49,172 bases of DNA from Candidatus Dormiibacterota bacterium (GTDB lineage: Bacteria > Chloroflexota > Dormibacteria > Aeolococcales > Aeolococcaceae), in the NCBI GenBank assembly GCA_036495095.1, contig DASXNK010000023.1:1-49172 (forward strand), written 5' to 3'. How positions within the stretch are numbered: position 1 is the first letter of the stretch; each line of letters opens with the position of its first letter. Under the pieces are notes generated by a model. That model was given only the letters and a program-made list of their open reading frames with translations, was not told the origin of the DNA and did no database searches. Below are positions 5,420 through 48,812 of the stretch, piece by piece. The translations under genes and the position numbers were made by a program.

Positions 5420-5463
5420 GCCGGAGGCCCGGGCCACCGCCACGGAAGGTGTGCGCAACTGGG

Positions 5464-5469
5464 TAGGCT
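5464..5469 (+). promoter_or_regulatory. -10 box TAGGCT, leaderless promoter of the DksA-like gene
   Basis: TAGGCT lies 7 nt before the GTG at 5477, the distance expected if transcription starts at the start codon. There is no Shine-Dalgarno sequence and no clear -35 box. The same arrangement recurs at 7966, 21218, 23420, 37781 and 45310. Confidence 0.45.
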
Positions 5470-5476
5470 TGGGGCC

Positions 5477-5845
5477 GTGGACATGGAGCGGGCCCGTCAG
5501 CTCCTGCTCGCCGAACGTGAGCGGCTGCTGGCACTCAGAGAGGCAACGGCGCGGCTCGTCGGCGAGGACGTCGAGGCCACGGCCGCTGAGCTGAGCCATG
5601 CCGACCAGCACCCCGCCGACGAGGCCACCGAGCTGTTCGAGGAGGAGCGCGACCTCGGGGTCGAGCACGACGTCGACCACCTGATCGCCGAGGTCGACGC
5701 CGCCCTGCAGCGGGTCGACGAGGGCCGCTACGGGATCTGCGAGGCCTGCGGCAAGCCCATCCCCGACGAGCGGCTGGAGGCCGTGCCCGCCGCCCGTTAC
5801 TGTGTCGAGGACCAGGCCCGCCGGGAGAGGGGGCTGCTCGGGTGA
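5477..5845 (+). CDS. DksA/TraR family zinc-finger protein
   Basis: A 122-residue protein with an N-terminal helical hairpin rich in Glu and Arg, followed by the DksA/TraR C4-type finger YGICEACGKPIPDERL...RYCVEDQ. Cys88, Cys91 and Cys109 are present, but the fourth ligand position (112) is Asp. Relatives bind RNA polymerase through the secondary channel and modulate initiation; here the role is inferred. GTG 5477 is chosen because a -10-like TAGGCT sits 7 nt upstream; ATG 5483 is an alternative start. Its stop overlaps the next GTG as GTGA, so the small downstream protein is co-translated. Confidence 0.85.
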   Translation: MDMERARQLLLAERERLLALREATARLVGEDVEATAAELSHADQHPADEATELFEEERDLGVEHDVDHLIAEVDAALQRVDEGRYGICEACGKPIPDERLEAVPAARYCVEDQARRERGLLG

Positions 5846-6186
5846 CCGACGGAGAGCCTCCGCCGGGCGAGGTGGCGGCGCCGCCGGCGGTGGGCGACGA
5901 CCTCCGCTCCAGCCTCGACAGCCTGCGCGACCAGCTCCTCGACGGGCTCCCGGCCCGGGTGCAGGGGATGGCCGAGGAGCTGATCCTGGAGTGGTCGGCG
6001 GCGGTCGAGGCGGTCCCCGAGCTGGCCCGGGTGGCCACCGCCGAGGTGATCCGGCTGCTGCGCATGGCGCCCGCCGAGCGCGAGTGCACGCTGCGCCGCC
6101 GCTACGCCCGCCTCCACGGCGAGGAGCCCCCGGAGGTGGGGCTGATGGGCACCCACGTGCCCACCCCGAGGCAGGCGGCGGGCTGA
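5842..6186 (+). CDS. small hypothetical protein coupled to the DksA-like gene
   Basis: 114 residues with no family I recognise. It starts at a GTG that overlaps the upstream stop by 4 nt and has strong high-GC codon bias, which supports a real gene. The N-terminus is rich in Pro, Gly and Glu; residues about 25-75 look helical and amphipathic (SSLDSLRDQLLDGL, GMAEELILEW). No signal peptide, membrane segment or metal motif is visible. Pairing with a DksA/TraR-type protein may point to a transcription-related role, but that is a guess. Confidence 0.6.
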   Translation: MTDGEPPPGEVAAPPAVGDDLRSSLDSLRDQLLDGLPARVQGMAEELILEWSAAVEAVPELARVATAEVIRLLRMAPAERECTLRRRYARLHGEEPPEVGLMGTHVPTPRQAAG

Positions 6187-6206
6187 GCCGCCGGCCAGGG
6201 GAGCCC

Positions 6207-6233
6207 CCGGGCGCGCAAGATCGGGGCGCCCGG
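6207..6233 (+). terminator. 8-bp GC hairpin after the DksA-like operon
   Basis: CCGGGCGC at 6207-6214 pairs perfectly with GCGCCCGG at 6226-6233 around an 11-nt loop, 20 nt after the stop at 6186. There is no run of T after it, so it is at best a weak intrinsic or factor-assisted terminator. Confidence 0.35.
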
Positions 6234-6301
6234 CACCGTTGTGCTTCGAGGAGGATGGCCGCCGCATTTTTCCGCGACGGCGTTCAGGAAGGGACACATA
6301 C

Positions 6302-7939
6302 ATGAAGCTGCCGAGGCTGCGGACGGCGTTCGCCGTCATCGCCCTGATCGCCGGCTCGCTGAGCGCCGCCGTGCTCACCTCGTCCGCGAGGGCGGGTGCG
6401 GCCTCGGGCGGCGGAGCGACGATCTTCGTCCAGACCATGGACTCCTGCCACCAGATCCTGGGCAGCGCCGTGGTCTCGATCACCGGCGGCGCGTTCTCGG
6501 CGTCCGCCACCACACCCGCGGGCCACGGCACCGCGGGCGGCGCCGGCTGCCCGGTGCCGACCGGCAGCTGCTCGGCGGGGCCGTGCGCGAGCTTCACCGG
6601 GGTGCCCGACGGCGCCTACCGGATCATCACCACCAAGACTCCGCCCGCGAACGCATCGAACCCGGAGGGGTACGCGCCCTGTGAGGGCGGCAGCGCCTGC
6701 CGCTCGCAGTGGGCCGACGTCACCGTCTCGGGCGGCAGCGTCCACGCGACCGTGTCCAACATCTACCCGAACAACAAGACCACCACGTTCTCCTTCGCGG
6801 GGAGCAGCGGGGACCCGATCGTCTTCCACGACTTCGGCCTCGCCGCCCCGGGCAGCAACGGCAACGCCCAGTGCGACGGCGACTCCGACGCCGACGACCA
6901 CAGCACCGGATCGCCCAGCGGCAGCTGCGCCTTCCTGCCCGAGAGCGCCGAGTCGAGCGCCTGCCAGCCGTTCCCGTGGAGCTGCACCCTCGGCGGTGGG
7001 CCGCCCGTCGCCGCCCGCCACCTCGGCCTCACCTTCCCCGCCACGGTGCAGGCCTTCGCCACCGTGCCGGTCACGGTGACGGCGCTGAACGGCACCGCCA
7101 CCGACACCGCGTACAGGGGCACGGTGACGCTGAGCTCGAGCACCGACAAGCTGGCGACCATGCCCCCCGCCTACACGTTCACCGCCGCCGACGCGGGCGT
7201 GCACGTCTTCTCGCTGACCCTGCGCCACCCCGGCAGCCAGACCGTCTCGGCCTCGACCAAGGGCAAGGCCGGCGGCTCCGGCGGCATCGGCACGGTCACG
7301 GTGACCAACGACGACGCCAGCTTCGTCGAGGACCTCTACCACGACATCCTCGGCCGGGTCGGCGCCGACTCCGAGGTGGCCTACTGGGTGGGTCAGATGG
7401 GCGGCCGCGGCCGCGGGGGCGTCGCCGCCTTCTTCAGCACCTCGACCGAGGTGTACGGCCGCAGCGTCGACGCCGCCTACCAGCGGCTGACCGGCCACGC
7501 CGCCGACGCCGGCGGCCGCTCCTACTGGGTGTCGCAGCTCCAGGGCGGTGGCTACGACGAGAGCCTGCTGGCCGCGCTCGCCGCCAGCCCGACCTACTAC
7601 GCGGGCCACGGCAGGGGCACCGACCGGGGCTTCGTGACCGCCCTCTACCAGGACATCCTGGGGCGCACCCCGCAGACCGCCGAGGTCGACGGCTGGGTCG
7701 CCGGAGGCCCGGTCGACCGCGCCGGCGTCGCCCACAGCTTCGCCTTCTCCCACGAGCACCACCTCCAGGTGGTCGCGGACGCCACCGCCGGCTGGTACCA
7801 GCACTACCTCAACCGCCCCGCCGACTCCGGCGGCGCGGAGTGGTGGGCGACCCAGCTCGACCAGGGCACCCGCGACGAGGCCGGCGTCGCCAACTTCACC
7901 AGCGGCGACGAGTACTACGCCAAGCCTGTCACCTACTGA
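6302..7939 (+). CDS. secreted protein with Ig-like and DUF4214 domains
   Basis: A 545-residue exported protein. Residues 1-32 form a signal peptide (basic start, hydrophobic core, cleavage near SARA-G). Residues about 35-160 look like a beta-sandwich of the carboxypeptidase-regulatory/SpaA kind, residues about 237-338 an Ig-like domain, and residues about 340-540 carry DUF4214-type repeats (FVEDLYHDILGR, FVTALYQDILGRTP, YQHYLNRPADSGG). DUF4214 occurs in S-layer and surface proteins and is thought to mediate protein or matrix contacts. ATG 6302 is chosen over an upstream in-frame ATG because it begins the signal peptide and has AGGAAGGG 8-15 nt upstream. No anchor or membrane segment follows, so the protein is probably released or held non-covalently. 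Confidence 0.85.
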   Translation: MKLPRLRTAFAVIALIAGSLSAAVLTSSARAGAASGGGATIFVQTMDSCHQILGSAVVSITGGAFSASATTPAGHGTAGGAGCPVPTGSCSAGPCASFTGVPDGAYRIITTKTPPANASNPEGYAPCEGGSACRSQWADVTVSGGSVHATVSNIYPNNKTTTFSFAGSSGDPIVFHDFGLAAPGSNGNAQCDGDSDADDHSTGSPSGSCAFLPESAESSACQPFPWSCTLGGGPPVAARHLGLTFPATVQAFATVPVTVTALNGTATDTAYRGTVTLSSSTDKLATMPPAYTFTAADAGVHVFSLTLRHPGSQTVSASTKGKAGGSGGIGTVTVTNDDASFVEDLYHDILGRVGADSEVAYWVGQMGGRGRGGVAAFFSTSTEVYGRSVDAAYQRLTGHAADAGGRSYWVSQLQGGGYDESLLAALAASPTYYAGHGRGTDRGFVTALYQDILGRTPQTAEVDGWVAGGPVDRAGVAHSFAFSHEHHLQVVADATAGWYQHYLNRPADSGGAEWWATQLDQGTRDEAGVANFTSGDEYYAKPVTY

Positions 7940-7965
7940 CCGCGGGCCGGATCGCCGGCTCTGCC

Positions 7966-7971
7966 TACACT
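7966..7971 (+). promoter_or_regulatory. -10 box TACACT, leaderless promoter of the hydrolase gene
   Basis: TACACT is followed by 6 nt and then GTG 7978. No Shine-Dalgarno sequence is present and the 38-nt intergenic gap leaves room for nothing else. This fits leaderless transcription. Confidence 0.5.
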
Positions 7972-7977
7972 GAGCCG

Positions 7978-8847
7978 GTGAGCAGCCGGCCCGACACCGC
8001 GCCGTCGCCGCTCCCGGCGACCGCGGTGCGGCTCCTCGAGGGGCCGGCGGGCCGGCTGCGCCTCCACCTCACCGGCGACGGCGCCGCGCCGCCGGTGATC
8101 GCCGTCCACGGCGTGGGGGCGACCGGGCGGCAGTTCCGGCGCCTCGCCGAGGAACTCGCCGGCCGCGGGCTCCGGACCGTCGCGCTCGACCGGCCCGGAG
8201 CCGGCGGCAGCCCCGCCGGCGACCCCCGGCTGGCCGGCCAGGCGGCGGCCGCGCTCGCCGCGGCGGCGGCCGTCGCCCCCGGCCCGGCGACGTGGGTGGG
8301 GCACTCCTGGGGCGCCGCGGTGGCCCTGGAGGCAGCGCTCACCGTCCCGGACGCGGTCGGCGCGCTGGTGCTGGTGGCGCCGGCGCTGGTGCCCTTCGCG
8401 CTGCCGCTGCCCGTCCGGCTGGCGGTGTCGAGGCCGGGCAGCTGGACGGTGCGCAGCCTGCTGCGCCTCGCCGGCCGCCCGCTGATCCGCGGGGCGATGC
8501 GCCGCGTCTACGGCCCGCGCACCGCCCTGGTGGACGACGTCGCGGTCACCGAGGAGCTCGAGGGCTGGCGGGGCCAGGCGTTCACCGGCGTCGCCGCCAC
8601 GGTGCGGGTGATGGAGGCGGAGCTGCGCGACCTGGGCCGGCGGGCCGGCGGGCTCGACCCCCGGATCCCGGTCCACGTGCTCCTCGGCGAGGCCGACCCG
8701 CTCACCGCCGGCGGGCCGCCACGGGAGGCGCTCCTGGCCCTCCTGCCCCAGGCGACCGTCGAGGTGCTGCCCCGCTGTGGCCACGTCCTCCACGTCACCG
8801 AGGCCGGTGCGGTGGCGGGCCGGGTGGCCGCGGTCTCCCTCGCCTAG
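7978..8847 (+). CDS. alpha/beta hydrolase
   Basis: A 289-residue alpha/beta-hydrolase fold enzyme of unknown substrate. The oxyanion region HGVGATGRQF follows strand 3, the nucleophile is the Ser of GHSWGAAVA, the acid is probably the Asp of LGEADPLT, and the catalytic His is in CGHVLH. No signal peptide is evident. The frame is open well upstream through the secreted-protein gene, but GTG 7978 lies right after a TACACT box and gives a standard N-terminus. The last 4 nt overlap the end of the convergent gene on the other strand. Confidence 0.85.
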   Translation: MSSRPDTAPSPLPATAVRLLEGPAGRLRLHLTGDGAAPPVIAVHGVGATGRQFRRLAEELAGRGLRTVALDRPGAGGSPAGDPRLAGQAAAALAAAAAVAPGPATWVGHSWGAAVALEAALTVPDAVGALVLVAPALVPFALPLPVRLAVSRPGSWTVRSLLRLAGRPLIRGAMRRVYGPRTALVDDVAVTEELEGWRGQAFTGVAATVRVMEAELRDLGRRAGGLDPRIPVHVLLGEADPLTAGGPPREALLALLPQATVEVLPRCGHVLHVTEAGAVAGRVAAVSLA

Positions 8848-9668
8848 GCTGCGGCCGCGCGGCGCAGCCGCAGCGAGAGCCCCGCGCAGGCGCCGCCGGC
8901 GAGCAGCATCGCCAGGCCGCCGAGCAGCCGGGCACCGCCGCCGGTGGCGGGCACGCTGACCCGCGACGGAGCGGGCGCGGGCGCGCCGGTCGCCGGCGGC
9001 CGGGCGGCGGCGGCCGCCGCCACCGGTGCCGTGATCGGCGCCGGCGCGCTGGCCTGCGGCGGCGCGGCGAGGGCGAGGTGGAGGGTCGTCTCCGGGTCGG
9101 AGCTGCGCAGCTCGAGGGCGTAGACACCGTTCTCCGGGACGACGCCGTGGGCACGGGCGGCGGCGACGACGGCGGCGGGGTCGAGCACGGCGAGGGGCTG
9201 CCGCCCGTCCCCGGCGGTGACCTGCCAGGCGGACGCGAGCAGCGCGATGTCGTTGCCGTCCGCGACCTCGGCGAGCACGCGGTAGCTGCCCGAGGCCTCG
9301 TCGAGCCCGGCGCCCCAGAGCCCCAGCGGCGCGTACGGCAGCAGCACCGGCGCCTCGCCGGTCCGGTCGGGCGGGGCCGGGGTCTCGGCGGAGGCGCCGG
9401 CGGCGGCGGAGGTGATCCAGAGCCGCCCCTCCGGGGTCTCGGCGGCACCGGCCGCGTGCCCGATGCCGCCGATGCCGGCCACCGAGGCGAGCCCGAATCC
9501 GGCCACACCCAGGGCGGCGCCGAGCACGGCGGTCAGGCGCGAGAGCCGGGGCGCCCCGGCCGGCGGCCGGCGGCGGCGCTGGCCGCGGCTGTCGAGGGCG
9601 AGCACCAGGAGGCTGCCGGAAAAGGCGGGGATGACCACGACGATGACTGTCAGCCCCATCGCGCTCAT
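8844..9668 (-). CDS. membrane protein with LPxTG-like C-terminal anchor
   Basis: A 274-residue protein I cannot assign to a family. A hydrophobic segment sits at the very N-terminus (MGLTVIVVVIPAFSGSLLVL) and another near residues 45-75. The middle is a Gly/Ala/Pro-rich extracytoplasmic part. The C-terminus reads VPATGGG, then a hydrophobic stretch and a basic tail (RLRRAAAA), the layout of a cell-wall sorting signal with the motif altered from LPxTG. An ATG 14 codons further upstream exists, but GGAGG sits at the right distance before ATG 9668. A good promoter lies at 9732-9760. Confidence 0.65.
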   Translation of the reverse strand: MSAMGLTVIVVVIPAFSGSLLVLALDSRGQRRRRPPAGAPRLSRLTAVLGAALGVAGFGLASVAGIGGIGHAAGAAETPEGRLWITSAAAGASAETPAPPDRTGEAPVLLPYAPLGLWGAGLDEASGSYRVLAEVADGNDIALLASAWQVTAGDGRQPLAVLDPAAVVAAARAHGVVPENGVYALELRSSDPETTLHLALAAPPQASAPAPITAPVAAAAAARPPATGAPAPAPSRVSVPATGGGARLLGGLAMLLAGGACAGLSLRLRRAAAA

Positions 9669-9731
9669 CCCGCCTCCTCCCCGCGGAGCGGCTCCCTCGC
9701 GCCGCTCCACACCCTCTCAGCACTCCGGGCG

Positions 9732-9760
9732 AGGGTACGGCCTCCGCCACAAACTGTCAA
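9732..9760 (-). promoter_or_regulatory. sigma-70-type promoter TTGACA-17-TACCCT
   Basis: Reading the minus strand, a perfect TTGACA (9760-9755) is followed by a 17-nt spacer and TACCCT (9737-9732). This is one of only two clean -35/-10 pairs I found in the window. It would start transcription near 9725 and give a leader of about 55 nt before the gene starting at 9668. Confidence 0.7.
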
Positions 9761-9769
9761 TAAGTGCGG

Positions 9770-9785
9770 CTCCCCGTGCGGGGAG
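9770..9785 (-). terminator. hairpin after the acyl-CoA synthetase gene
   Basis: CTCCCC and GGGGAG pair around a 4-nt loop, 7 nt beyond the stop of the gene ending at 9792. On the minus strand it is followed by a mildly T-rich stretch (CTTATT) that runs into the next promoter. Weak candidate. Confidence 0.35.
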
Positions 9786-9791
9786 TTCCGG

Positions 9792-11333
9792 TCAGACCTG
9801 TCGCCCCGCCTCGGTCCAGTAGCGGTCGCGCAGCAGCCGCTTCAGCAGCTTGCCGGCGGCGTCACGCGGGAAGTCCTCGACGAAGTCGACGCTGCGGGGA
9901 CGCTTGTACGCGGCCAGCCGCTCGCCCACGTAGCCGATCAGCTCCTGCTCGCCGGCCTCGCCCCCCGGCCGCAGCTTCACCACCGCCTTCAGCGACTCGC
10001 CCCACTCGCTGTCGGGAACGCCGACCACCGCGCAGTCCTCGACCGCGGGATGGGAGTGGAGCACCGCCTCGATCTCCGCGGGATAGATGTTCACCCCGCC
10101 GCTGATCACCATGTCGACCTTGCGGTCGCAGATGTGGATGAAGCCCTCGTCGTCGCGCCAGGCGATGTCGCCGACGGTGAAGAAGCCGTCGCGCCGGTTG
10201 CGCGCGGTCGCCTCGGGCCGGTTGTGGTACTCGGAGAACACCCCCGGTGAGCGCGCCCAGAGCTCACCGGGCTGGCCCTCGGGGACCTCGTTGCCATCGT
10301 CGTCGAGGAGGCGCACCTCCACCGCGGGGAGCACGCGGCCGCACGAGTCGGGCTTGCGCAGCAGGTCGGCGGGGGTGATCAGCGTGACCAGCCCGGTCTC
10401 GGTGGCGCCGTAGAACTCGAAGACGTGGGGTCCGAAGAAGTCGACCGCCCGCCGCTTCAGGTCGGCGGGGAACGGGGCGGCGGCGACGATCAGGCACCGG
10501 ATGCTGGAGACGTCGTGGGCGCGGCGCACCGCCTCGGGGAGGTCGAGGATGCGCTTGACCAGGATCGGCGCCATGAACGTGGTGGTGACCCGGTGCTCGG
10601 CGATCAGCCGCAGCGCGGTCTCGGCCTCGAAGCGGCGCAGCACCACGGTGGTGGCGCCGAACATCTGCTGCAGCCCGGCGAAGAAGCCCGGGGCGCTGTG
10701 GTAGCTGGGCCCTGCGAGCAGGTGCACGTCCTCGGTCGAGAACTGGAAGGCCGCCACCCAGCTGGACGCCACGCTCACGTCCACGCCGCCGCCGCGGTAG
10801 GCACCCTTGGGGTGTCCGGTGGTGCCCGCGGTGTAGATCATCGTCGGCGCGCTGGTCGCGCCGCCCCCGGGAGGCTCGGCGTCGCCGGCGGCGGCGAGCA
10901 CGTCCTCGTAGGCCTGCCAGCCGGGGGGCGGGGCGCCGTCGCCGAGCATCAGCCAGCGGCGGCGGTCGGCGTCCTCGACCTGGGGCCGCGCCGCCTCGAC
11001 GGCGGCGGTGAACTCCGGTCCCGCCACCACCACCCGGGCGCCGCTGTCGTTGAGCAGGTAGGCGATCTCGGCATCCCGCAGCCGGGTGTTCACCGGCGTC
11101 GACACCGCGCCCAGCCGGCGCAGAGCGTGGCCGAGCTCGAAGCCCTCGATGCAGTTGTGGTGGAGGTGGGCGCAGCGCTCGCCGGCGGCGAGCCCGAGGC
11201 CGGAGAGCGCGGTGGCGGCGCGCCGGACCCGCGCGTTCAGCTCCGCGTAGCTCCGCCGCCGCCCGGCGTCGTCGATCAGCGCGCTCCGCTCCGGCGAGTG
11301 CGCCGCGTGCACCGCGAGGATGTCGAGGTTCAT
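9792..11333 (-). CDS. AMP-dependent acyl-CoA synthetase
   Basis: A 513-residue ANL-superfamily ligase that adenylates a carboxylic acid with ATP and transfers it to CoA. Visible motifs are the P-loop YTAGTTGHPKGA, the FYGATETG motif, the hinge region DGFFTVGDIAWRD, the CDRKVDMVISGGVNIYP motif and the C-terminal catalytic lysine in PRDAAGKLLKR. The substrate cannot be read from the sequence; medium- or long-chain fatty acids are likely. The ATG overlaps the stop of the penicillin-binding protein gene as ATGA, so it is translated from the same message even though the functions differ. Confidence 0.88.
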   Translation of the reverse strand: MNLDILAVHAAHSPERSALIDDAGRRRSYAELNARVRRAATALSGLGLAAGERCAHLHHNCIEGFELGHALRRLGAVSTPVNTRLRDAEIAYLLNDSGARVVVAGPEFTAAVEAARPQVEDADRRRWLMLGDGAPPPGWQAYEDVLAAAGDAEPPGGGATSAPTMIYTAGTTGHPKGAYRGGGVDVSVASSWVAAFQFSTEDVHLLAGPSYHSAPGFFAGLQQMFGATTVVLRRFEAETALRLIAEHRVTTTFMAPILVKRILDLPEAVRRAHDVSSIRCLIVAAAPFPADLKRRAVDFFGPHVFEFYGATETGLVTLITPADLLRKPDSCGRVLPAVEVRLLDDDGNEVPEGQPGELWARSPGVFSEYHNRPEATARNRRDGFFTVGDIAWRDDEGFIHICDRKVDMVISGGVNIYPAEIEAVLHSHPAVEDCAVVGVPDSEWGESLKAVVKLRPGGEAGEQELIGYVGERLAAYKRPRSVDFVEDFPRDAAGKLLKRLLRDRYWTEAGRQV

Positions 11334-13564
11334 CGCCCCAGTGTGAAGGAGACGGAGAACCCCGGGCCTCCCTCCTTTTGGGGGATCCCCGGCGATGGGG
11401 ACGGCGACCCGGGCGGGCCGGGGTCGCCGGCGAGGCCGGACCACCCCGGGGCGCACGACCAGAGCAGGCCGCCCTCGCGGGTCCACTGCCGGCAGTCCGC
11501 CAGCGGCGCCATCTCGCCGAGCGCGCCGGCCTCGGCGCCGGTCTCCGCGGAGGTGCCCTCGAGGACCCAGCCGCCGGCGACTCGCCGCACCCCGTGGGGG
11601 GGCCCCGGCCAGCCGTCGCCGCCACCGCCGAGCGCGTGGCTCATCACCGCGTTCCAGATCGGCGCGGCGCCGCTCAGCCCGGTGGTGTTGCGCATCGGCG
11701 AGTCGTCGGCGTTGCCGACCCAGGTCGCCAGCGCCAGCCGTGGCGTCCACCCCACGGTGAGGTTGTCGCGGAACTCGGTGGTGGTGCCGGTCTTGGCGGC
11801 GACCAGGTGGCCCGGGATGGTGAGCGCCGACCGGCTGCCGAAGGCGGGGGCGCGGTTGGCGTCGTCGGCGAGGATCGCGTTCATCACGAAGGCCACCGCC
11901 GGGTCGAGGGCGCGGTGCCCCGGCCCCCGCGCCAGCAGCTCGCCGCCGCGGCGGTCGCCGACCGAGAGCAGCACGTGCTCGGCCCGGTACCACCCCTCGG
12001 CGGCGAGCACGGTGGCCGCCTGGGCGAGCTCCTCCAGGGGCACCGGGTAGCCGCCAAGGGTGAGGCTGGCGCCGTAGGCGGAGGCGGGCCGGTCCAGGGT
12101 GGTGACCCCCATCGCACGGGCGACGCGCACCACCTCGGGGATGCCGGTGAGCATCTCCGCCTTCACCGCGGGCACGTTGAGCGAGCTCGCCAGCGCCTCC
12201 TTGACGGTGACCGTCCCCCGGTACCACGGCTCGTAGTCGTGCACCTGGTAGCGGGCGGTGCCGCCGGCGCCGCCACCCCGGGCAAGGCTGTAGGGGCGGT
12301 CGCGGATCGGGGTGACCATGCTCAGCCGCCGCGCCTGGAGGGCGGCCGAGTAGGTGAAGAGCTTGAAGATCGATCCCGGCGACCTCGGCTGCGCGGCCAT
12401 GTCGAGCTGCTCGGCGGGATGGCCGGGGCCGGCGCTGCCGACGTCGGCGAGCACCTCGCCGCTGCGCGGGTCGACCGCCACCAGGGCACCGTCGCCGGCG
12501 TGCTGCGCGGCCATCGAGTCGACCTGCCGGGTGACCGCCGACTGGGAGAACCGCTGCAGCTCGGAGTCGATGGTGGTGGTGATCCGCAGCCCGGCGGTCA
12601 CGGCGTCGAGGCCGAGCCGCTCGCGCACCTCGCCAACCACCCGCGCGGTGACCGTGGGGAAGAGGTCGACGTCGGCCATGGCGCCGGAGACCAGCGCCGG
12701 CATCTCCGCCTGCGCGGCCGCCGCGGCGGTGACGGCGCCGGTGTCGACCATCGCGGCCAGCACCGCACGCTGCCGGGCCCGGGCCGCGTCGGGATGGCGG
12801 AAGGGGTCGAGCAGCGCGGGGCTGTTGGGCAGCCCGGCGAGCAGCGCCGCCTGGGCGAGGTCGAGCCGGGCCGCGCCGATCCCGAAGTAGGTGCGCGCCG
12901 CCGCCTCGGCCCCGTAGGCGCCGTGCCCGTAGTTGATGTCGTTGAGGTACTCCTCGAGGACCTGCTCGCGGCTCAGGGTGCGGGCGAGGTGACGGGCGAT
13001 GAAGATCTCCCGCAGCTTGCGGTCGACGGTGCGCGGCGAGGTGCCCACGTAGAGGACCTTGGCGAGCTGCTCGGTGATCGTGCTGGCGCCCTGGACGGGG
13101 CCGCCGTTGACCAGGTCGGTCCAGGCCGCGGCCACCAGCCGGGAGCCGTCGACCGCCCCCTCGTGCCAGAAGTTGCGGTCCTCGACGGCCACGGTGGCGC
13201 GGCGGAGCTCTGGGGAGATCTGCGCGAGGGCCACCGGCACCCGCCGCTCGCCGGCGGCGTGGAGCACCGCGATGAGCTCGCCGTGGCGGTCGAGGACCAC
13301 CGAGTCGGCGGGCAGCGTTCGCGAGTCGGGAACGGCACCGAGGCGGTCGTCGAGCAGCGCGAGGGCCGCCTGCCCGCCCCCCCAGAGCAGCACGGTCGCG
13401 ATCGCGAGGGCGGCGGCGACCAGGGCGGCGAGGTGGATGCGGGAGCGCCGCCGGGCACCGCGGGCGAGGCGGCGGGTGAGCACCACCGGGTGCACCCCGG
13501 CGCCGACGCGGCGTCGCGGCGGCAGGGGGCCGGCGGGCGGGGGACGGCGGGTGGTGCCGGACAT
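11330..13564 (-). CDS. class A penicillin-binding protein (transglycosylase/transpeptidase)
   Basis: A bifunctional peptidoglycan synthase of about 744 residues. A cytoplasmic Arg/Pro-rich N-terminus precedes one membrane helix (HLAALVAAALAIATVLLW). The GT51 domain has EDRNFWHEG with its catalytic Glu and QGASTITEQLAK. The transpeptidase domain has SIFK (SxxK serine), SSLN (SxN) and KTGTT (KTG), so both activities look intact. The C-terminus is a Pro/Gly-rich tail. The frame is open to 13732; ATG 13564 is preferred because it gives the usual short cytoplasmic tail and avoids overlap with the zinc-ribbon gene. ATG 13636 is an alternative. No good Shine-Dalgarno is seen at either. Confidence 0.88.
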   Translation of the reverse strand: MSGTTRRPPPAGPLPPRRRVGAGVHPVVLTRRLARGARRRSRIHLAALVAAALAIATVLLWGGGQAALALLDDRLGAVPDSRTLPADSVVLDRHGELIAVLHAAGERRVPVALAQISPELRRATVAVEDRNFWHEGAVDGSRLVAAAWTDLVNGGPVQGASTITEQLAKVLYVGTSPRTVDRKLREIFIARHLARTLSREQVLEEYLNDINYGHGAYGAEAAARTYFGIGAARLDLAQAALLAGLPNSPALLDPFRHPDAARARQRAVLAAMVDTGAVTAAAAAQAEMPALVSGAMADVDLFPTVTARVVGEVRERLGLDAVTAGLRITTTIDSELQRFSQSAVTRQVDSMAAQHAGDGALVAVDPRSGEVLADVGSAGPGHPAEQLDMAAQPRSPGSIFKLFTYSAALQARRLSMVTPIRDRPYSLARGGGAGGTARYQVHDYEPWYRGTVTVKEALASSLNVPAVKAEMLTGIPEVVRVARAMGVTTLDRPASAYGASLTLGGYPVPLEELAQAATVLAAEGWYRAEHVLLSVGDRRGGELLARGPGHRALDPAVAFVMNAILADDANRAPAFGSRSALTIPGHLVAAKTGTTTEFRDNLTVGWTPRLALATWVGNADDSPMRNTTGLSGAAPIWNAVMSHALGGGGDGWPGPPHGVRRVAGGWVLEGTSAETGAEAGALGEMAPLADCRQWTREGGLLWSCAPGWSGLAGDPGPPGSPSPSPGIPQKEGGPGFSVSFTLGR

Positions 13565-42042: not shown

Positions 42043-43485
42043 CTACATGGTGACCGCGATCGCCGCGCCGATGGCCGCGATCCGGGCCCCATCGCGGAGC
42101 GCGGCGTCGAGGGTGCGCTTGCGCTCCACCCACTCGGCGGTGCGGTCGAGGAGGTGGGGGTGCTCGGGGATGAAGTGGGTGGAGAGCCTGCCGGCGACGA
42201 AGTCGGGCTCGTCGAGGAGGGCGAGGTGGAAGGGGATGTTGGTGGTGATGCCCCCGATCACGTACTCGCGCAGCGCCCGGCGCATCCGGGCGACCGCCGC
42301 GCCGCGGGTCGGCCCCCAGACGATCAGCTTGGCGATCATCGGGTCGTAGTGGGGGGAGACGGTGGAGGCGACCACCAGGGAGCTGTCCACCCGCACCCCG
42401 GGGCCGCTGGGTTCGCGGTAGACGGTGACCCGGCCGGGGGTGGGCATGAAGTCCCGGAGCGGATCCTCCGCGTTCACCCGGCACTCGATCGACCAGCCCC
42501 GGGGCGCCACGTCCTCCTGGCGGAGCTCCAGCCGCTCGCCGGCGGCGATGCGCAGCTGCTCGACCACCAGGTCGACACCCTGGACCTCCTCGGTCACCGG
42601 GTGCTCGACCTGCAGGCGGGTGTTCATCTCGAGGAAGAAGAACTCGCCCCGGCTGTAGATGAACTCCACGGTGCCGGCGTTCACGTAGCCGACGGCGCGG
42701 GCGGCGGTGACCGCGGCCTCGCCCATCCGGGCGCGCTGCTCGGGGTCGATGACCGGCGAGGGCGACTCCTCGAGCACCTTCTGGTGGCGGCGCTGGATGC
42801 TGCACTCCCGCTCGCCGAGGTGGACGGTGTTCCCGTGGGCGTCGGCGAGGACCTGGATCTCGATGTGACGCGGCTCCTCGACGTAGCGCTCGAGGAAGAC
42901 GGTGGCGTCGCCGAAGGCGCGCTCGGCGGTGCTCCTCGCCGCCTCCAGCCCGGCGCGCAGCTCGGGCTCGTCACGGGCCACGCGCATGCCGATGCCACCG
43001 CCGCCGGCGCTCGCCTTGATCAGCACCGGGTAGCCGACCCGGCCGGCCGCCGCGAGCGCCTCCTCGACGTCCCCCAGCGCCCCCGAGCCGGGCACCACCG
43101 GCACCCCGGCGGCCTCCATGCGCTCGCGGGCGGGCACCTTCTCGCCCATCGCCGCCATCGCCTCGGGCGGCGGCCCCACGAAGGCGATGCCGGCCGCGGC
43201 GCAGGCCCGCGCGAAGGCCTGGTTCTCGCTGAGGAAGCCGTAGCCGGGGTGGATCGCCTGGGCGCCGGTGCGCTGCGCCGCCTCGATGATCCGGTCGATG
43301 CGCAGGTACGACTGCGACGGCGCGGCCGGGCCGATCTCGACCGCCTCGTCGGCGAGCCGCGCGAACGCGGCGCCGGCGTCGGCCTCGCTGTGCACCGCGA
43401 CGCTGCGCACCCCGAGGTCGCGGCAGGCGCGGATCACCCGCAGCGCGATCTCGCCGCGGTTGGCGACGAGGACGGTGTCGAACAT
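42043..43485 (-). CDS. accC: biotin carboxylase
   Basis: Carboxylates biotin on a carrier protein with ATP and bicarbonate. The 480-residue ATP-grasp enzyme has VLVANRGEIALRVIRAC, HPGYGFLSEN, the Gly loop KASAGGGGIGMRV, RRHQKVLEE, the catalytic EMNTRLQVEHPVTE, the Arg of GPGVRVDS and HYDPMIAKLIVWG, so it looks active. No carrier domain is fused. ATG 43485 gives the family N-terminus (MFDTVLVANRGE); GTG 43488 is possible. Both overlap the stop of the carboxyltransferase-like gene. Confidence 0.92.
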   Translation of the reverse strand: MFDTVLVANRGEIALRVIRACRDLGVRSVAVHSEADAGAAFARLADEAVEIGPAAPSQSYLRIDRIIEAAQRTGAQAIHPGYGFLSENQAFARACAAAGIAFVGPPPEAMAAMGEKVPARERMEAAGVPVVPGSGALGDVEEALAAAGRVGYPVLIKASAGGGGIGMRVARDEPELRAGLEAARSTAERAFGDATVFLERYVEEPRHIEIQVLADAHGNTVHLGERECSIQRRHQKVLEESPSPVIDPEQRARMGEAAVTAARAVGYVNAGTVEFIYSRGEFFFLEMNTRLQVEHPVTEEVQGVDLVVEQLRIAAGERLELRQEDVAPRGWSIECRVNAEDPLRDFMPTPGRVTVYREPSGPGVRVDSSLVVASTVSPHYDPMIAKLIVWGPTRGAAVARMRRALREYVIGGITTNIPFHLALLDEPDFVAGRLSTHFIPEHPHLLDRTAEWVERKRTLDAALRDGARIAAIGAAIAVTM

Positions 43486-45299
43486 CACTCGACGTGGACG
43501 ATGGGATCCTGGGGCGAGACCACCGTGCCCTCGGTGACGTAGACCTCGCGGACCACGCCGGCACGGGTGGCGGTGACGTCGTTCTGCATCTTCATCGCCT
43601 CGAGCACGGCGACCACGTCACCGAGGGCCACGGTGTCGCCGACGGCGACGGGGACGCGCAGGATCAGGCCCTGCATCGGCGCCAGCACCGTCCCCTCACG
43701 GATCACGGGGCGGCCGGCGCCCGCGGCGACGCCGTCGACGGCCGCGCCCCCGCCGCCGCCGCCGAAGGTGCCCGCCGGGGCGGTGACCCTCACCGTGTAC
43801 TGCTCGCCGTCGACCTCGACGGTGAGCTGCCGGACCTCGTCGGGCGGCGCCGGCGGGGGCGCGGGCGCGGCCACCGACGAGGCCTCCTCGGCGGGGTTCG
43901 CCGCGCCCGGACCGGCGTTCTCGGGCTCGGGCTCGGGCTCGTCGCCGAGCAGCTCGGCCACCGCCTCGCCGCGGAGCAGCGCCGCGGTCTCCGCGGGGAA
44001 GAGGGCGTAGGCGACCAGGTCGCCGTCGTCGCGGATGGGGATCCCGTCGCGCTCGGTCTCGTGGCGCAGCAGCGGCAGCTGGGGCTCGAGCAGGTCGGCC
44101 GGCCGGCAGGTGATCGGCTCCTCGCGGCCGTTCACCACCCGCCGCACCCCGGGATCGACCGGGCCCGGAGGCTCGCCGTAGAGGCCGAGGCAGTAGTCCT
44201 TGACCTCCTGGCTGATGGTGGCGTAGCGCTCGCCGTCGCAGACGTTGTAGACCGCCTGGGTGGCGACGATCTGGGCGATCGGGGTGATCAGCGGTGGGTG
44301 ACCGAGCTCGGCGCGCACCCGGGGGATCTCCAGCTGCACCTCGGCGAGCCGCCCCATCGCGTCGCGGTCGCGCAGCTCGGCATGGAGGTGGTCGACCGCC
44401 GCCGGGGGCAGCTGGGTGCGCAGCACCGAGGTGTCCAGCCGCCACGCGGCGGGGTCGGCGAGGGCCCGGTAGAGGCCCATCGACTCCTCGAGCATCCCGG
44501 TGGCGGCGGCGACGGTGTCGAGGTCGCAGGCGGTCTCCTGGGCGGTGCCGACGAGCGCGTGGATCACTCCCTCGGTGGCCGGCAGCGAGGAACCGTCGGC
44601 GAGCGGCGAGAGGGCGACATCGAGCGAGGAGGCCCCCGCCTCGGCGGCGGCGAGGTAGGTGAGCCCCGCCTGGCCGGTGAGCGCCGCGGAGTGCACGTTG
44701 ACGGGGAGGCCGGTCTCCGCGATCAGCCCCCGCACCAATGCGGTCGCGGTGCCCGCGCCGAGCAGGCCGGCGGGATCGTAGATGCAGAGGGCGTCGTAGC
44801 CGAGGTCGCGGAGCCGCGCCCCCAGGGCGATGAAGCGGTCGACGTCGTGGACCGGCGACTCGGTGTACACGAGCGCCCCCTCGGCATGCCTGCGGGCGGC
44901 GTGCACCGCGGTGACGATGCGCTCGAGGTTGCGGACGTCGTTGAGCGAGTCGTAGCAGCGGAAGATGTCGATGCCGGCCTCGGCGCTCACCCGGACGAAG
45001 GCGTCGACGACGTCGTCGGCCATCTGGCGATGGCCCACCAGCGCCTGGCCGCGCACCAGCGCGAGCAGCGGCGTCGACGGGGCGGCCTCCTTCAGGGCGC
45101 GCAGACGCTCGAACGGGTCCTCGCCCAGGAAGCGGATGCAGGCCTCGAACGTGGCGCCGCCGAAGACGTCCAGGCTGGCGAAGCCGCACCGATCGAGGAG
45201 CGCGGCAACAGGGATGATGTGACGCAGGCGAAGACGGCTGAGCAGAAGGCTCTGCTGACCATGACGGAGCGCCGTCTCCACCAGTTCGAGACTGGCCAT
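43485..45299 (-). CDS. OadA/PycB-type carboxyltransferase-BCCP protein with degenerate metal site
   Basis: 604 residues. Residues 1-440 align along their length with the carboxyltransferase of oxaloacetate decarboxylase alpha/pyruvate carboxylase B (DVFGGATFEACIRFLGEDPF, GIDIFRCYDSLNDVRNLE, LEEIPRVRAELGHPPL-type text, ITPIAQIVATQAV). After a Pro/Ala linker, a biotinyl domain ends the protein with EAMKM (Lys570). Metal-site positions differ: RDAHQS is RHGQQS (His13), CIKDMAG is CIYDPAG (Tyr174 for the carbamylated Lys), and HTHD/C is HSAA (His203 kept, Ala205). ATG 45299 is chosen; the upstream ATG 45311 overlaps the -10 box. Confidence 0.85.
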   Translation of the reverse strand: MASLELVETALRHGQQSLLLSRLRLRHIIPVAALLDRCGFASLDVFGGATFEACIRFLGEDPFERLRALKEAAPSTPLLALVRGQALVGHRQMADDVVDAFVRVSAEAGIDIFRCYDSLNDVRNLERIVTAVHAARRHAEGALVYTESPVHDVDRFIALGARLRDLGYDALCIYDPAGLLGAGTATALVRGLIAETGLPVNVHSAALTGQAGLTYLAAAEAGASSLDVALSPLADGSSLPATEGVIHALVGTAQETACDLDTVAAATGMLEESMGLYRALADPAAWRLDTSVLRTQLPPAAVDHLHAELRDRDAMGRLAEVQLEIPRVRAELGHPPLITPIAQIVATQAVYNVCDGERYATISQEVKDYCLGLYGEPPGPVDPGVRRVVNGREEPITCRPADLLEPQLPLLRHETERDGIPIRDDGDLVAYALFPAETAALLRGEAVAELLGDEPEPEPENAGPGAANPAEEASSVAAPAPPPAPPDEVRQLTVEVDGEQYTVRVTAPAGTFGGGGGGAAVDGVAAGAGRPVIREGTVLAPMQGLILRVPVAVGDTVALGDVVAVLEAMKMQNDVTATRAGVVREVYVTEGTVVSPQDPIVHVE

Positions 45300-45309
45300 G
45301 AGCGGCGTC

Positions 45310-45315
45310 ATTGTA
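45310..45315 (-). promoter_or_regulatory. -10 box TACAAT of the biotin operon
   Basis: TACAAT on the minus strand, 10 nt before ATG 45299. It includes two bases of the in-frame ATG at 45311, which therefore cannot be the start if this box is used. Confidence 0.5.
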
Positions 45316-45424
45316 GAGAGGCGGCCGGTGCAGACGCCCTGAGCCGCCTCCCCCGAATCGTCAGCCTCCTGAAAGGTTCGAGCGATACGGTGCGAAGCGG
45401 CGGATCACCCCAGGAGACCCCCCT

Positions 45425-46810
45425 CTGAGCACTCTCGACCTCCCCACCACGCCCCCGGGCTCGCGGCTGCGCCCAGCGCGCGAGTGGCGCACCCACCGGC
45501 GCGAGGTGCTCGCGCTGCTCGGCGTCAACGCGGTGCTGATCGTGGGCATGTGGATCCGGCACGGCGGCCTGAGCACGCTGACCAGCGCCTCGGCGGATCT
45601 CACCGCGGCGGGGGAGCTCACCGCGCTGCTGGGCACCTACGCCGCGCTCGTCCAGCTCCTGCTGATGTCGCGCAGCCCGGTGGTCGAGCAGCTGGCGGGC
45701 CCTGACCGGGTCGCCCACTGGCACCGGTGGCTGGGCTTCTCCTGCACCCTGCTGATCTGCGGCCACGTGGTGCTGACCACGGTCGGCTACGCCCTCGGCG
45801 ACGGCAGCAGCGTCGCCGCCGAGGCCTGGACCCTGCTCACCACCTACCCCTGGATGCTGATGGCGGCGGCCGGGACCGTCTGCCTGCTCATGGTCGCGGT
45901 CACCTCGGTCCGGATCGCCCGCCGGCGGCTGCGCTACGAGACCTGGCACTTCGTCCATCTCTACGCCTACCTCGCCATCGCCCTCAGCCTCGGCCACGAG
46001 CTGGCGGTGGGAAACGACCTCTCCACCGACCCGGTGGCCCGCGTCTACTGGATCGGGCTGTACCTCGTGGTGGCCGGCTGCGTGCTCGCCTTCCGGGTCG
46101 GCCGCCCGCTCCGCCACGCCCTGCGCCACCGGCTGCGGATCGCCCGGGTGGTGCCGGAGGCCAGCGGCGTGGTGTCGATCTACGTCACCGGGCGCGACCT
46201 CGACCAGCTGCGGGCCCGCGCCGGCCAGTTCTTCCGCTGGCGCTTCCTCGCCGGGGACGGCTGGTGGAAGGCGCACCCCTTCTCGCTCTCGGCGGCGCCG
46301 AACGCACGCTTCCTGCGGCTCACCGTCAAGGCGGTGGGCGACGGAAGCGCCGAGGTCCAGCGCCTGGCGCCGGGCACGCGGGTGATGGCCGAGGGACCCT
46401 ACGGCATCCTCACGGCGCACCGGCGGCGGCGCCCGGGGGTGCTGCTGATCGCCGGCGGCGTCGGCATCACCCCGCTGCGCGCCCTCCTCGAGGAGCTCGG
46501 CGGCCGGGGCGCGGTCACCCTGCTCTATCGCGCCAGCAGCTGGGAGGACGTCCTCTTCCGCGCCGAGATCGACGACCTGATGCGGGCCCGCCGCGGCACC
46601 GTCCACTACCTCGTGGGCCGCCGGGGCACCCCCGAGCTCGGCGACGACCCGCTCGGCGTCGGCGCGCTGCGCCGGCTGGTCCCCGACCTGCGCGAGCGCG
46701 ACGTCTTCCTCTGCGGGCCCGCCGGGATGATCCGCGGGGTCCGCGAGGCCCTGGGCCAGCTCGGCGTCTCCGACGAGCAGATCCACGACGAGCGCTTCGC
46801 GCTGCTCTGA
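45425..46810 (+). CDS. ferric-reductase-like transmembrane flavohaem protein
   Basis: 461 residues if started at CTG 45425. Residues about 28-225 hold some six helices with haem-ligand candidates (HWHRWLGF, LICGHVVL, WHFVHLYAYLA, LGHELAV). Residues about 235-335 form an FAD domain (HPFSLSAAP) and about 340-455 an NAD(P) domain (IAGGVGITPLRALLEE, FLCGPAGM). It would move electrons from NAD(P)H across the membrane. Start: AGGAG lies 8 nt before CTG 45425 and the frame is open from there; GTG 45506 is the only conventional alternative and lacks that site. First gene of the flavin locus. Confidence 0.85.
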   Translation: MSTLDLPTTPPGSRLRPAREWRTHRREVLALLGVNAVLIVGMWIRHGGLSTLTSASADLTAAGELTALLGTYAALVQLLLMSRSPVVEQLAGPDRVAHWHRWLGFSCTLLICGHVVLTTVGYALGDGSSVAAEAWTLLTTYPWMLMAAAGTVCLLMVAVTSVRIARRRLRYETWHFVHLYAYLAIALSLGHELAVGNDLSTDPVARVYWIGLYLVVAGCVLAFRVGRPLRHALRHRLRIARVVPEASGVVSIYVTGRDLDQLRARAGQFFRWRFLAGDGWWKAHPFSLSAAPNARFLRLTVKAVGDGSAEVQRLAPGTRVMAEGPYGILTAHRRRRPGVLLIAGGVGITPLRALLEELGGRGAVTLLYRASSWEDVLFRAEIDDLMRARRGTVHYLVGRRGTPELGDDPLGVGALRRLVPDLRERDVFLCGPAGMIRGVREALGQLGVSDEQIHDERFALL

Positions 46811-46821
46811 GCGAGCTGTCG

Positions 46822-47499
46822 ATGATCATCCCCAGGCGCGCCCTCTCCGCCCTCGTGGCCACCGCCGCCGCGGTGGCGCTGCTGGCGAGCTTCCGGACGC
46901 CCGACCAGGCCACGCCGCGGACGGCGGGTGTGGCCCGGAGCACGCTGAGCGCGCCGGCCTCCACCGCCCCGCCGGCGGCGCAGGGGAGCACGCCGCCGCC
47001 GCCACCGCCGTCGGTCGCGGTCCCCACCGCGACCGCAACCCCCACCGTCGCGCCCCCGGCGAGCGCGCCGCCTCCCACCGCCTCCGCGCCCGCCGCCGCG
47101 GCCACTCCGCGCATCCCCACCCCGGCTCCGCCCCCGACCCCCCGGCCAGCGCCGCCGCCGACGCCGCGACCGCAGCCCACCGCGACCCCGGTCGCCGCCT
47201 CCGGGTTGCACGACGGCACCTGGACGGGCAGCGACGTGGTCGCCGGCGACGCCTTCCGCAGCTTCGGCGACGTCCAGGTGCAGCTGGTGATCAGCGGCGG
47301 CCGGATCACCGACGTGCGGGCGGTGCAGATGCCCACCCACGCCCGATCCGGGCAGATCAGCAGCTCTGCCGGGCCCCAGCTGCGCAGCGAGGTGCTCCAG
47401 GCGCAGAGCGCGCGGATCGACACGGTCTCGGGCGCGACCTACACCAGCCAGGCCTACGCGCAGTCGGCGCAGGCCGCACTCGACCAGGCCCGGGCCTGA
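46822..47499 (+). CDS. FMN-binding domain protein, long linker
   Basis: 225 residues. An N-terminal hydrophobic signal/anchor (ALSALVATAAAVALLASF) is followed by about 95 residues of Pro/Ala/Thr linker (PPPTPRPAPPPTPRPQP) and a C-terminal FMN_bind domain: GLHDGTWTGSDV, GDVQVQLVISGGRITDVRAV, and DTVSGATYTS with Thr206 as the expected covalent FMN site. It starts 11 nt after the reductase stop. Probably an exported electron carrier flavinylated by the ApbE encoded downstream. Confidence 0.88.
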   Translation: MIIPRRALSALVATAAAVALLASFRTPDQATPRTAGVARSTLSAPASTAPPAAQGSTPPPPPPSVAVPTATATPTVAPPASAPPPTASAPAAAATPRIPTPAPPPTPRPAPPPTPRPQPTATPVAASGLHDGTWTGSDVVAGDAFRSFGDVQVQLVISGGRITDVRAVQMPTHARSGQISSSAGPQLRSEVLQAQSARIDTVSGATYTSQAYAQSAQAALDQARA

Positions 47500-47512
47500 A
47501 CCGGAGCTCGTC

Positions 47513-48037
47513 ATGATCGTCCCCGCACGCGCCGCCACCGCCGTCCTCGGCACCATCGCCGCGGTCGCTCTTCTCGCCAGCTTCCGGACGCCGGACACGA
47601 CCGCGACCCGCGTCGCCGGCCTCCCCGCCGCACCCTCCGGTGACCCGACCCCGGCGGCGCAGCCGGCCGCCGCCGGAGCGGGCACCGCCACCGACCAGGC
47701 CGGGCCGGCGGCCTCCACCGCCACGCCGGCGCCGTCGCCCGCCGGCGGCAGCCACCTCAGGGACGGGCGCTACTCCGGCGAGGACGTGAGCATGCGATAC
47801 GGCGACGTCCAGGTGCGGGTGGTCGTCTCCGGGGGCCGCATCACCGACGTCCAGGCGGTGCAGCTGCCCAGTGATCGCTCCCGCTCCGCGTACATCAGCC
47901 AGGTCGCCGGGCCGATGCTCCACGACGAGGTGCTGACGGCGCAGAGCGCCCAGATCGACACCATCTCCGGGGCGACCTACACCAGCGACGCCTACGCCCA
48001 GTCGGTCCAGGCGGCGCTCGACCAGGCCCATGCCTGA
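47513..48037 (+). CDS. FMN-binding domain protein, short linker
   Basis: 174 residues, a paralogue of the preceding gene product: same anchor (AAVALLASFRTPD), shorter Ala/Pro/Gly linker, and the same FMN_bind core (LRDGRYSGEDV, GDVQVRVVVSGGRITDVQAV, DTISGATYTS with Thr155 as flavin site). GGAG lies just upstream of ATG 47513. Tandem duplication with divergence of the linker is the simplest origin. Confidence 0.88.
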   Translation: MIVPARAATAVLGTIAAVALLASFRTPDTTATRVAGLPAAPSGDPTPAAQPAAAGAGTATDQAGPAASTATPAPSPAGGSHLRDGRYSGEDVSMRYGDVQVRVVVSGGRITDVQAVQLPSDRSRSAYISQVAGPMLHDEVLTAQSAQIDTISGATYTSDAYAQSVQAALDQAHA

Positions 48038-48812
48038 GCCGCCCACCACGGCGCGCCGGGTCCGCGTCGAGCAGGTGATGGGCACCGCCGTCGGGGTCGA
48101 CCTCCGCGACCCGGGAGTGCCGGAGCCCGCCCTCGACGGGTTCTTCGGCTGGCTCCGCCAGGTCGACGCCCGCTTCAGCACCTACCGGGCCGGCAGCGAG
48201 ATCAGCCGCATCGGCCGCGGCGAGCTCGCACCCGGGAGCGCCCACCCCGACGTCCGCGAGGTGCTCGAGATCTGCGAGGAGGTCCGCCGGTGCAGCGGCG
48301 GCCTCTTCGCGGCGTGGCGTCCCGACGGCGGGCTCGATCCCTCGGCGGTGGTGAAGGGCTGGTCGGTGGAGCGCGGCGCCCGCCTGCTCGAGGACGCCGG
48401 TGCGCGCAACTTCTGCATCAACGCGGGCGGCGACGTGCTGGCGCGCGGCGAGCCCGAGCCGGGACGTCGGTGGCGGGTCGGCATCCGCCACCCGGAGATC
48501 GCCGACCGGGTCGCCGCCGTCCTCGGGGTGCGCGACCTCGCCGTCGCCACCAGCGGCACCTACGAGCGCGGCGCCCACATCCTCGACCCCCGCAGCGGCC
48601 TGCCGGCGTGCGGGCTGCTGAGCCTGACCGTGGTCGGGCCCAGCCTCACCCTCGCCGACGCCTACTCGACCGCCGCCTTCGTCATGGGCCGCGACGGGGC
48701 CTCCTGGATCGCCGGGATCCCGGGCTACGAGGCGTTCGCGGTGACCGCCGAGCACCGCGCCGTGTGGACCGAGGGCTGCCGCAGCCTGCGGGTGCAAGAC
48801 ATGGGCACCTGA
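48030..48812 (+). CDS. apbE: FAD:protein FMN transferase
   Basis: Attaches FMN from FAD to Thr of the D-x-(V/I)-S-G-A-T motif. The 260-residue protein has VMGTAVGVDL, FSTYRAGSEISRI, DPSAVVKGWSVE, NAGGDVLARG, TSGTYERGAHILDPRSG and ADAYSTAAFVMG, covering the ApbE signature. No clear signal peptide or lipobox, so it may act in the cytoplasm before or during export. It overlaps the second FMN-protein gene by 8 nt and closes the locus. Confidence 0.92.
   Translation: MPEPPTTARRVRVEQVMGTAVGVDLRDPGVPEPALDGFFGWLRQVDARFSTYRAGSEISRIGRGELAPGSAHPDVREVLEICEEVRRCSGGLFAAWRPDGGLDPSAVVKGWSVERGARLLEDAGARNFCINAGGDVLARGEPEPGRRWRVGIRHPEIADRVAAVLGVRDLAVATSGTYERGAHILDPRSGLPACGLLSLTVVGPSLTLADAYSTAAFVMGRDGASWIAGIPGYEAFAVTAEHRAVWTEGCRSLRVQDMGT

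Follow-up and report, generated by a model that had tools for sequence, protein, structure and literature searches.

A flavohaem reductase, two anchored FMN_bind carriers and a short ApbE without export signal in an MsrQ-like operon of Dormibacterota

Among the extracytosolic flavinylation systems surveyed by Meheust et al. (2021; PMC8238504), the MsrQ-like class combines a PF01794 protein, often carrying PF00175, with apbE and a gene for a protein binding flavin mononucleotide (FMN); 1797 such clusters were catalogued, mainly in Actinobacteria. Assignment required a PF01794 gene at most five genes away from apbE or FMN_bind, and a signal peptide or lipidation site, by SignalP 5, on at least one target gene. 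Here we describe an operon of this kind in Candidatus Dormiibacterota bacterium (assembly GCA_036495095.1), on a stretch of 49,172 nucleotides (nt) of contig DASXNK010000023.1, which was analysed at full length and is called the window. Its four genes form the window's end:

45425..46810, + strand: FRE, a predicted membrane flavohaem NAD(P)H reductase (Pfam, invariant motifs, fold like that of the NADPH oxidase SpNOX)
46822..47499, + strand: FMN_bind carrier A, 225 amino acids (aa) (Pfam, match to PDB 8p2a, anchor, linker)
47513..48037, + strand: FMN_bind carrier B, 174 aa (Pfam, match to PDB 8p2a, anchor, linker)
48030..48812, + strand: ApbE (FAD:protein FMN transferase; FAD, flavin adenine dinucleotide), a short form without export signal, 260 aa (Pfam, fold model)

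An MsrQ-like operon and its predicted electron path

By its sequence, the operon belongs to the MsrQ-like extracytosolic flavinylation systems, and the system itself is not new; the remark in the initial annotation that ApbE/FMN_bind clusters are known in general was true but understated, since exactly this arrangement makes up the catalogued class (PMC8238504). The Ferric_reduct gene adjoins the other three, with FMN_bind found twice and ApbE once. The membrane flavohaem reductase, two anchored FMN_bind proteins and ApbE first proposed for the locus were all recovered with Pfam scores that exceed the curated thresholds (Ferric_reduct 64 bits, threshold 28, NAD_binding_1 35.3 and FAD_binding_8 23.2 bits in FRE; FMN_bind 37.1 bits in carrier A and 40.6 bits in carrier B; ApbE 157.9 bits), which rules out chance or mis-framed reading frames. 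The tight packing also proposed is seen in intergenic distances of 11 and 13 nt, followed by an 8-nt overlap of carrier B and ApbE, all on the + strand. Judged by hydropathy only, both carriers have hydrophobic N-terminal anchors and ApbE has none.

Lack of a conserved gene order in relatives had been set beforehand as a refuting outcome, and it was not borne out: the order is conserved far beyond chance. Related loci were recruited twice independently, by FRE in the genome collection (31 loci) and by FMN_bind in 61 genomes from relatives (19 positive, with 21 contig stretches); two loci were common to both sets, for a total of 50. The full order FRE-FMN_bind-ApbE, counted by hand, was present in 41 of these 50 loci from Dormibacterota and Actinomycetota, and FRE adjoined FMN_bind in 49; no FRE was found in locus L070.

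FRE has approximately six predicted transmembrane helices, with FAD and NAD domains at the C-terminus. Four histidines (H100, H114, H178, H191) are invariant across 20 FRE homologues, at a spacing (14 and 13 residues) that would be expected of two stacked b haems; together with the helix pattern of the structure model, they suggest the six-helix, two-haem membrane core of the MsrQ-like class. These homologues also retain HPFSLSA as flavin motif and GGVGITP (GGxGxTP) and CGP as NAD motifs. The model of FRE (pLDDT, the predicted local distance difference test, 77.6) found its closest fold in the pneumococcal NADPH oxidase SpNOX (E 1.4e-17, TM-score 0.67/0.76). By analogy with this family, electrons would flow through FRE from the cytosol to the outside.

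We consider it likely, from conserved motifs and models, that the operon encodes an MsrQ-like system in which electrons would pass from NAD(P)H via FAD and two haems in series to FMN on anchored carriers outside the membrane, the flavin more probably being attached in the cytosol. On the cytosolic side, the FAD of FRE would take up electrons from NAD(P)H, as the motifs suggest, and single electrons would cross the membrane over two b haems, as the invariant histidines suggest; they would then reach FMN, presumably linked covalently to a threonine of each carrier outside the membrane. The operon's ApbE, judging from its family and from the motif of the carriers, would attach this FMN, taken from FAD. 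On their long, flexible linkers, the FMN domains could extend to the haem in the membrane and, across the wall, to an acceptor that is small or located at the surface, with ferric iron, a quinone or O2 as the most plausible candidates; carrier B would be the ancestral carrier and carrier A an extra, diverged copy with longer reach. FMN attachment, the uncertain step, would take place in the cytosol before or during insertion of the carriers into the membrane, more likely than outside, because this ApbE has no export signal.

The path proposed at the outset, which starts at NAD(P)H and leads over haem to FMN, is the best-supported reading; it agrees with the published class model, and its haem histidines, FAD/NAD and FMN motifs are conserved. 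Flavin attachment outside the membrane by the operon's ApbE is not straightforward, since this protein has no export signal, a point missed in the initial annotation. Several points weigh against the scheme as a whole: the fold of FRE is also that of O2-reducing NADPH oxidases; the path is a prediction from sequence and models; no acceptor gene accompanies the locus, and its neighbours vary between related loci; a leaderless ApbE fits flavinylation outside poorly; and the anchor flanks of Dormibacterota carriers are near-symmetric in charge (+1/+1 in carrier B), so that sequence does not settle their orientation, which makes attachment inside first more tentative in this group.

The shared fold with SpNOX, the closest solved structure, raises the reading of FRE as an enzyme like NADPH oxidases: in signalling, defence or the scavenging of oxygen, it would convert O2 to superoxide or peroxide, either directly or by way of the FMN carriers. 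O2 reoxidises the reduced multi-domain carrier SaFMN3 of Streptomyces azureus at 1.2 per second (PMC10339131). This rate is slow for an oxidase, however; O2 reactivity is widespread among flavoproteins, and the near-universal pairing of FRE with covalent-FMN carriers suggests a directed acceptor; an oxidase function appears improbable. As a special case of the proposed electron export, with a named acceptor, FRE could be an assimilatory ferric reductase that feeds Fe(II) to a transporter. VIT1 genes occur in 153 MsrQ-like clusters (PMC8238504), and a gene of the ferrous iron permease family (OFeT_1; L069:8399-9124) lies approximately 640 bp downstream of the locus in one Dormibacterota genome as a hint of iron; yet neither the window nor most of the relatives inspected have an iron transporter beside the locus, and this function is possible but doubtful. 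Other neighbours include two-component regulators in several Actinomycetota and in loci L065 and L077, and unrelated dehydrogenases elsewhere. In L065 (5659-11484, genome G057), a divergent ApbE stands behind a response regulator and a histidine kinase; next to another locus (L062:8590-9336, genome G007) lies a cytochrome b561/DUF4405-like gene scoring just below cut-offs, and DUF4405 cytochromes are flavinylation-associated (PMC11334425).

Translation of FRE probably begins at CTG 45425, to judge from the AGGAG motif (45412-45416) 8 nt upstream. The sister species, Chloroflexi metagenome-assembled genome RYN_343 (locus L031, the nearest public record, 85-86% over FRE), retains both AGGAG and CTG at the start of FRE (3508-3523; 45412-45427 in the window), and in several further relatives an ATG occurs at or close to the CTG position, a few codons away at most. 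The first ATG, GTG or TTG of FRE is GTG 45506; gene callers restricted to these three codons would place the start there, 27 codons downstream.

Two anchored FMN_bind carriers

The carriers are built alike, from an N-terminal anchor (15-residue hydropathy 2.3; 2.28 and 2.31), a linker of approximately 104 residues in carrier A and 52 in carrier B (83% P/A/S/T/G in both) and a single FMN_bind domain; these anchors and linkers match their earlier description. The flavinylation motif DxxSGAT reads DTVSGAT at residue 200 of carrier A and DTISGAT at residue 149 of carrier B, and in carrier A, G204, A205, T206 and S209 are shared without exception by 20 homologues. Both carriers matched PDB 8p2a (1.1e-17 for A, 3.2e-17 for B), the crystal structure of SaFMN3-D2 in which FMN is covalently attached to Thr72 (PMC10339131). 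In alignment to 8p2a, the attachment motif and pocket residues (Thr72, Ser42, Ile45) are kept in both carriers, and the flavin-stacking Tyr14 corresponds to Tyr in carrier B and to Phe in carrier A.

Carrier B shares 87% identity with the lone carrier of L031, and carrier A shares 66% with each of these two; sequence identity therefore marks carrier B as the ortholog of the L031 carrier and the ancestral form, and carrier A as a diverged paralogue. Carrier A would either predate the species split and have been lost in L031, or be evolving fast. A recent duplication that postdates the divergence from the sister species is unsupported: carrier A falls outside the pair of carrier B and the L031 carrier, although in a weakly resolved tree of 101 columns. 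The two carriers with unequal linkers, which the initial annotation had singled out, represent a lineage-level duplication and are not typical of the system in general; an arrangement of one FRE followed by two separate carrier genes occurs only in the window and in L065. In L065, one of the two carriers opens with a lipobox-like sequence (SSMLLVGCGG) and not with the usual anchor. Loci L043 and L048 encode two FMN_bind domains within one chain. Multi-flavinylated clusters, with more than one FMN_bind domain per chain, were described by Meheust et al. (2021; PMC8238504); here there is one domain in each of two chains. Two Streptomyces loci (L151 and L152; genomes G067 and G070) encode in succession FRE, a single FMN_bind protein, FRE, a triple FMN_bind protein resembling SaFMN3, and a short leaderless ApbE, a gene set that would possibly form a relay of several carriers; FMN_bind was found in 49 of 101 Streptomyces genomes, often several times. 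In the genome that contains the window (4.38 Mb, 216 contigs), for which whole-genome questions were answered by family searches, carriers A and B are the sole FMN_bind domains, and there are five ApbE genes and five Ferric_reduct proteins.

The short ApbE and the compartment of flavinylation

The ApbE of the window was modelled with a pLDDT of 92.9 and resembles FmnB (TM-score 0.86) and Ftp of T. pallidum (0.85-0.86); residues G133, G134, D135, H183, D210 and T214 are invariant. Approximately 55 residues are missing, and the Pfam match is split in two, with the break at profile positions ~75 to ~125. The same gap occurs in the FRE/FMN_bind-linked ApbE of both Dormibacterota and Actinomycetota; these short forms (21 in the tree, not counting L081_28, a contig-end fragment of a full-length form) constitute one clade (97/92), separate from the full-length ApbE of the same genomes.

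Export signals were judged by 15-residue hydropathy, and each ApbE was read from the most permissive in-frame start in a span of 60 codons, which also led us to reject a hidden leader upstream of the start. None of 53 distinct sequences (52 short ApbE and the fragment L081_28) reached a value of 1.8; the maximum was 0.91 and the window ApbE scored 0.80, compared to 1.99 for the leader of E. coli ApbE, and almost every carrier anchor fell in the range 2.0-3.0. The conserved ApbE core of four loci is preceded by a stop codon no more than 12 codons away. The window ApbE has no N-terminal export or lipoprotein signal of the kind that marks extracytosolic ApbE such as E. coli Ftp and Listeria FmnB; none of the other ApbE of its own genome has a leader, and the full-length ApbE of the surveyed genomes are also almost all leaderless. 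A search of the genome for FAD exporters of the EetB type (PF07456, the FAD-export marker used in PMC9973259) found none; it did not extend to other flavin exporters. In the literature, ApbE that serves extracytosolic carriers is placed outside, which entails a need for exported FAD (PMC9973259), and cytosolic ApbE is known for the soluble fumarate reductase of Klebsiella (PMC12052999); the searched passages of PMC8238504, which did not include the supplementary tables, do not discuss where ApbE of the MsrQ-like class resides.

As a plausible but tentative proposal for the whole branch, in Dormibacterota and Actinomycetota alike, the carriers could be flavinylated in the cytosol by the short leaderless ApbE clade and then delivered outside without the twin-arginine translocation (Tat) pathway, so that no FAD export would be needed. 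Attachment inside first is favoured for two reasons: the anchors of Actinomycetota obey the positive-inside rule (N-flank approximately +2, C-flank approximately 0), and the linkers, mostly 60-90% P/A/S/T/G with few charges, resemble cell-wall linkers. A twin-arginine (RR) is found in only five of 51 anchored carriers (present in carrier A, absent from carrier B), and Tat was therefore rejected as a general export route. If true, the proposal would break the rule that extracytosolic flavinylation occurs outside with secreted FAD.

Two other arrangements bear on the same evidence. In the first, a main rival, the FMN domains could face the cytosol (anchor N-out/C-in), where ApbE would meet the carriers directly and these would shuttle electrons between the flavin domain of FRE and a cytosolic partner, consistent with the lack of an export signal in any short ApbE and with the almost equal anchor flanks of Dormibacterota. 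Yet the flank charges in Actinomycetota predict N-in/C-out, the linkers are of the cell-wall kind, SaFMN3 is predicted to be anchored outside, a location called consistent with extracellular transferases (PMC10339131), and a FRE with its own FAD/NAD domain would need no cytosolic FMN carrier; taken together, cytosol-facing carriers appear quite unlikely. Alternatively, ApbE could leave the cytosol without a leader, or together with a partner protein, and act outside, as characterised ApbE with extracytosolic substrates do. This is hard to credit for proteins with no signal or hydrophobic segment, with stop codons so close to the core in four loci, and in a genome without an EetB-type exporter.

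The proposal of cytosolic attachment poses a compartment question, since published ApbE is placed outside, yet the loci described here, including the SaFMN3-like Streptomyces loci, pair their carriers with leaderless ApbE. In four genomes (G063, G072, G073, G074) the short form is apparently the sole ApbE (split profile matches joined by hand); culturable relatives in Saccharothrix, Umezawaea and Amycolatopsis, with the short form as their seemingly sole ApbE, make the question directly testable.

Genomic setting and comparison with described systems

Upstream of the operon, a pyruvate-carboxylase-like gene (43485-45311) points the opposite way, which indicates that the operon stands alone; in L031, genes of 480 and 607 aa occupy this place upstream of the locus, with matching orientation. 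The second-nearest public relative is Candidatus Changshengia, a Dormibacterota. Promoter and terminator scans gave no match. Elsewhere in the genome, a second flavinylation-like locus (L084, from C178:1000-18240; 4589-13458) encodes a KatG-like protein, a full-length leaderless ApbE, a Ferric_reduct protein, a NuoF-like protein (Complex1_51K, NADH_4Fe-4S), a ferredoxin, a pair of small anchored proteins that are rich in Pro and have Cys close to the C-terminus, and one further copy each of ApbE and of a Ferric_reduct protein; there is no FMN_bind and no DxxSGAT motif among its called genes. NuoF-like clusters of the MsrQ type are known (n=31; PMC8238504). At a third place (L085, contig C69, ~6250-7649), ApbE lies directly 5' of a short Ferric_reduct-like membrane protein, with no FMN_bind nearby.

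The operon extends a known class of trans-membrane electron-export systems to Dormibacterota, soil bacteria that are rarely cultured; the additions beyond that class are a clade of short ApbE without a leader and the paralogous relationship of carriers A and B. Like the MsrQ-like systems (PMC8238504), it has a PF01794 membrane protein with C-terminal PF00175, an FMN_bind gene and apbE in one cluster; it differs in its host phylum, in two separate single-domain carriers and in its short, leaderless ApbE. Homology to the periplasmic methionine sulfoxide reductase MsrPQ is distant and concerns the haem domain: FRE scored 23.7 bits against the NCBIfam MsrQ model NF003831 (cut-off 130) and no MsrP is encoded in the operon, which places FRE outside MsrQ in the strict sense. 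With SpNOX of Streptococcus pneumoniae (PDB 8qt6, 8qq7), FRE shares the whole-chain fold, a two-haem transmembrane core with an FAD/NAD dehydrogenase domain, but only ~18% identity, and FRE is linked to FMN_bind carriers and ApbE. SaFMN3 (PMC10339131, PDB 8p2a) resembles the carriers in its FMN_bind domain (66-67 bits), its DxxSGAT-Thr site and its N-terminal anchor; it has three domains in one chain, whereas here two single-domain chains have longer Pro-rich linkers. Finally, the extracellular electron transfer system of Listeria (FmnB, PplA, EetB/FmnA; PMC9973259) likewise has a covalent-FMN carrier outside the membrane, and its FmnB shares the ApbE fold; yet FmnB is extracytosolic and requires exported FAD, whereas the operon described here combines a leaderless ApbE, in a genome without an EetB homologue, with a flavohaem reductase as the predicted electron source.

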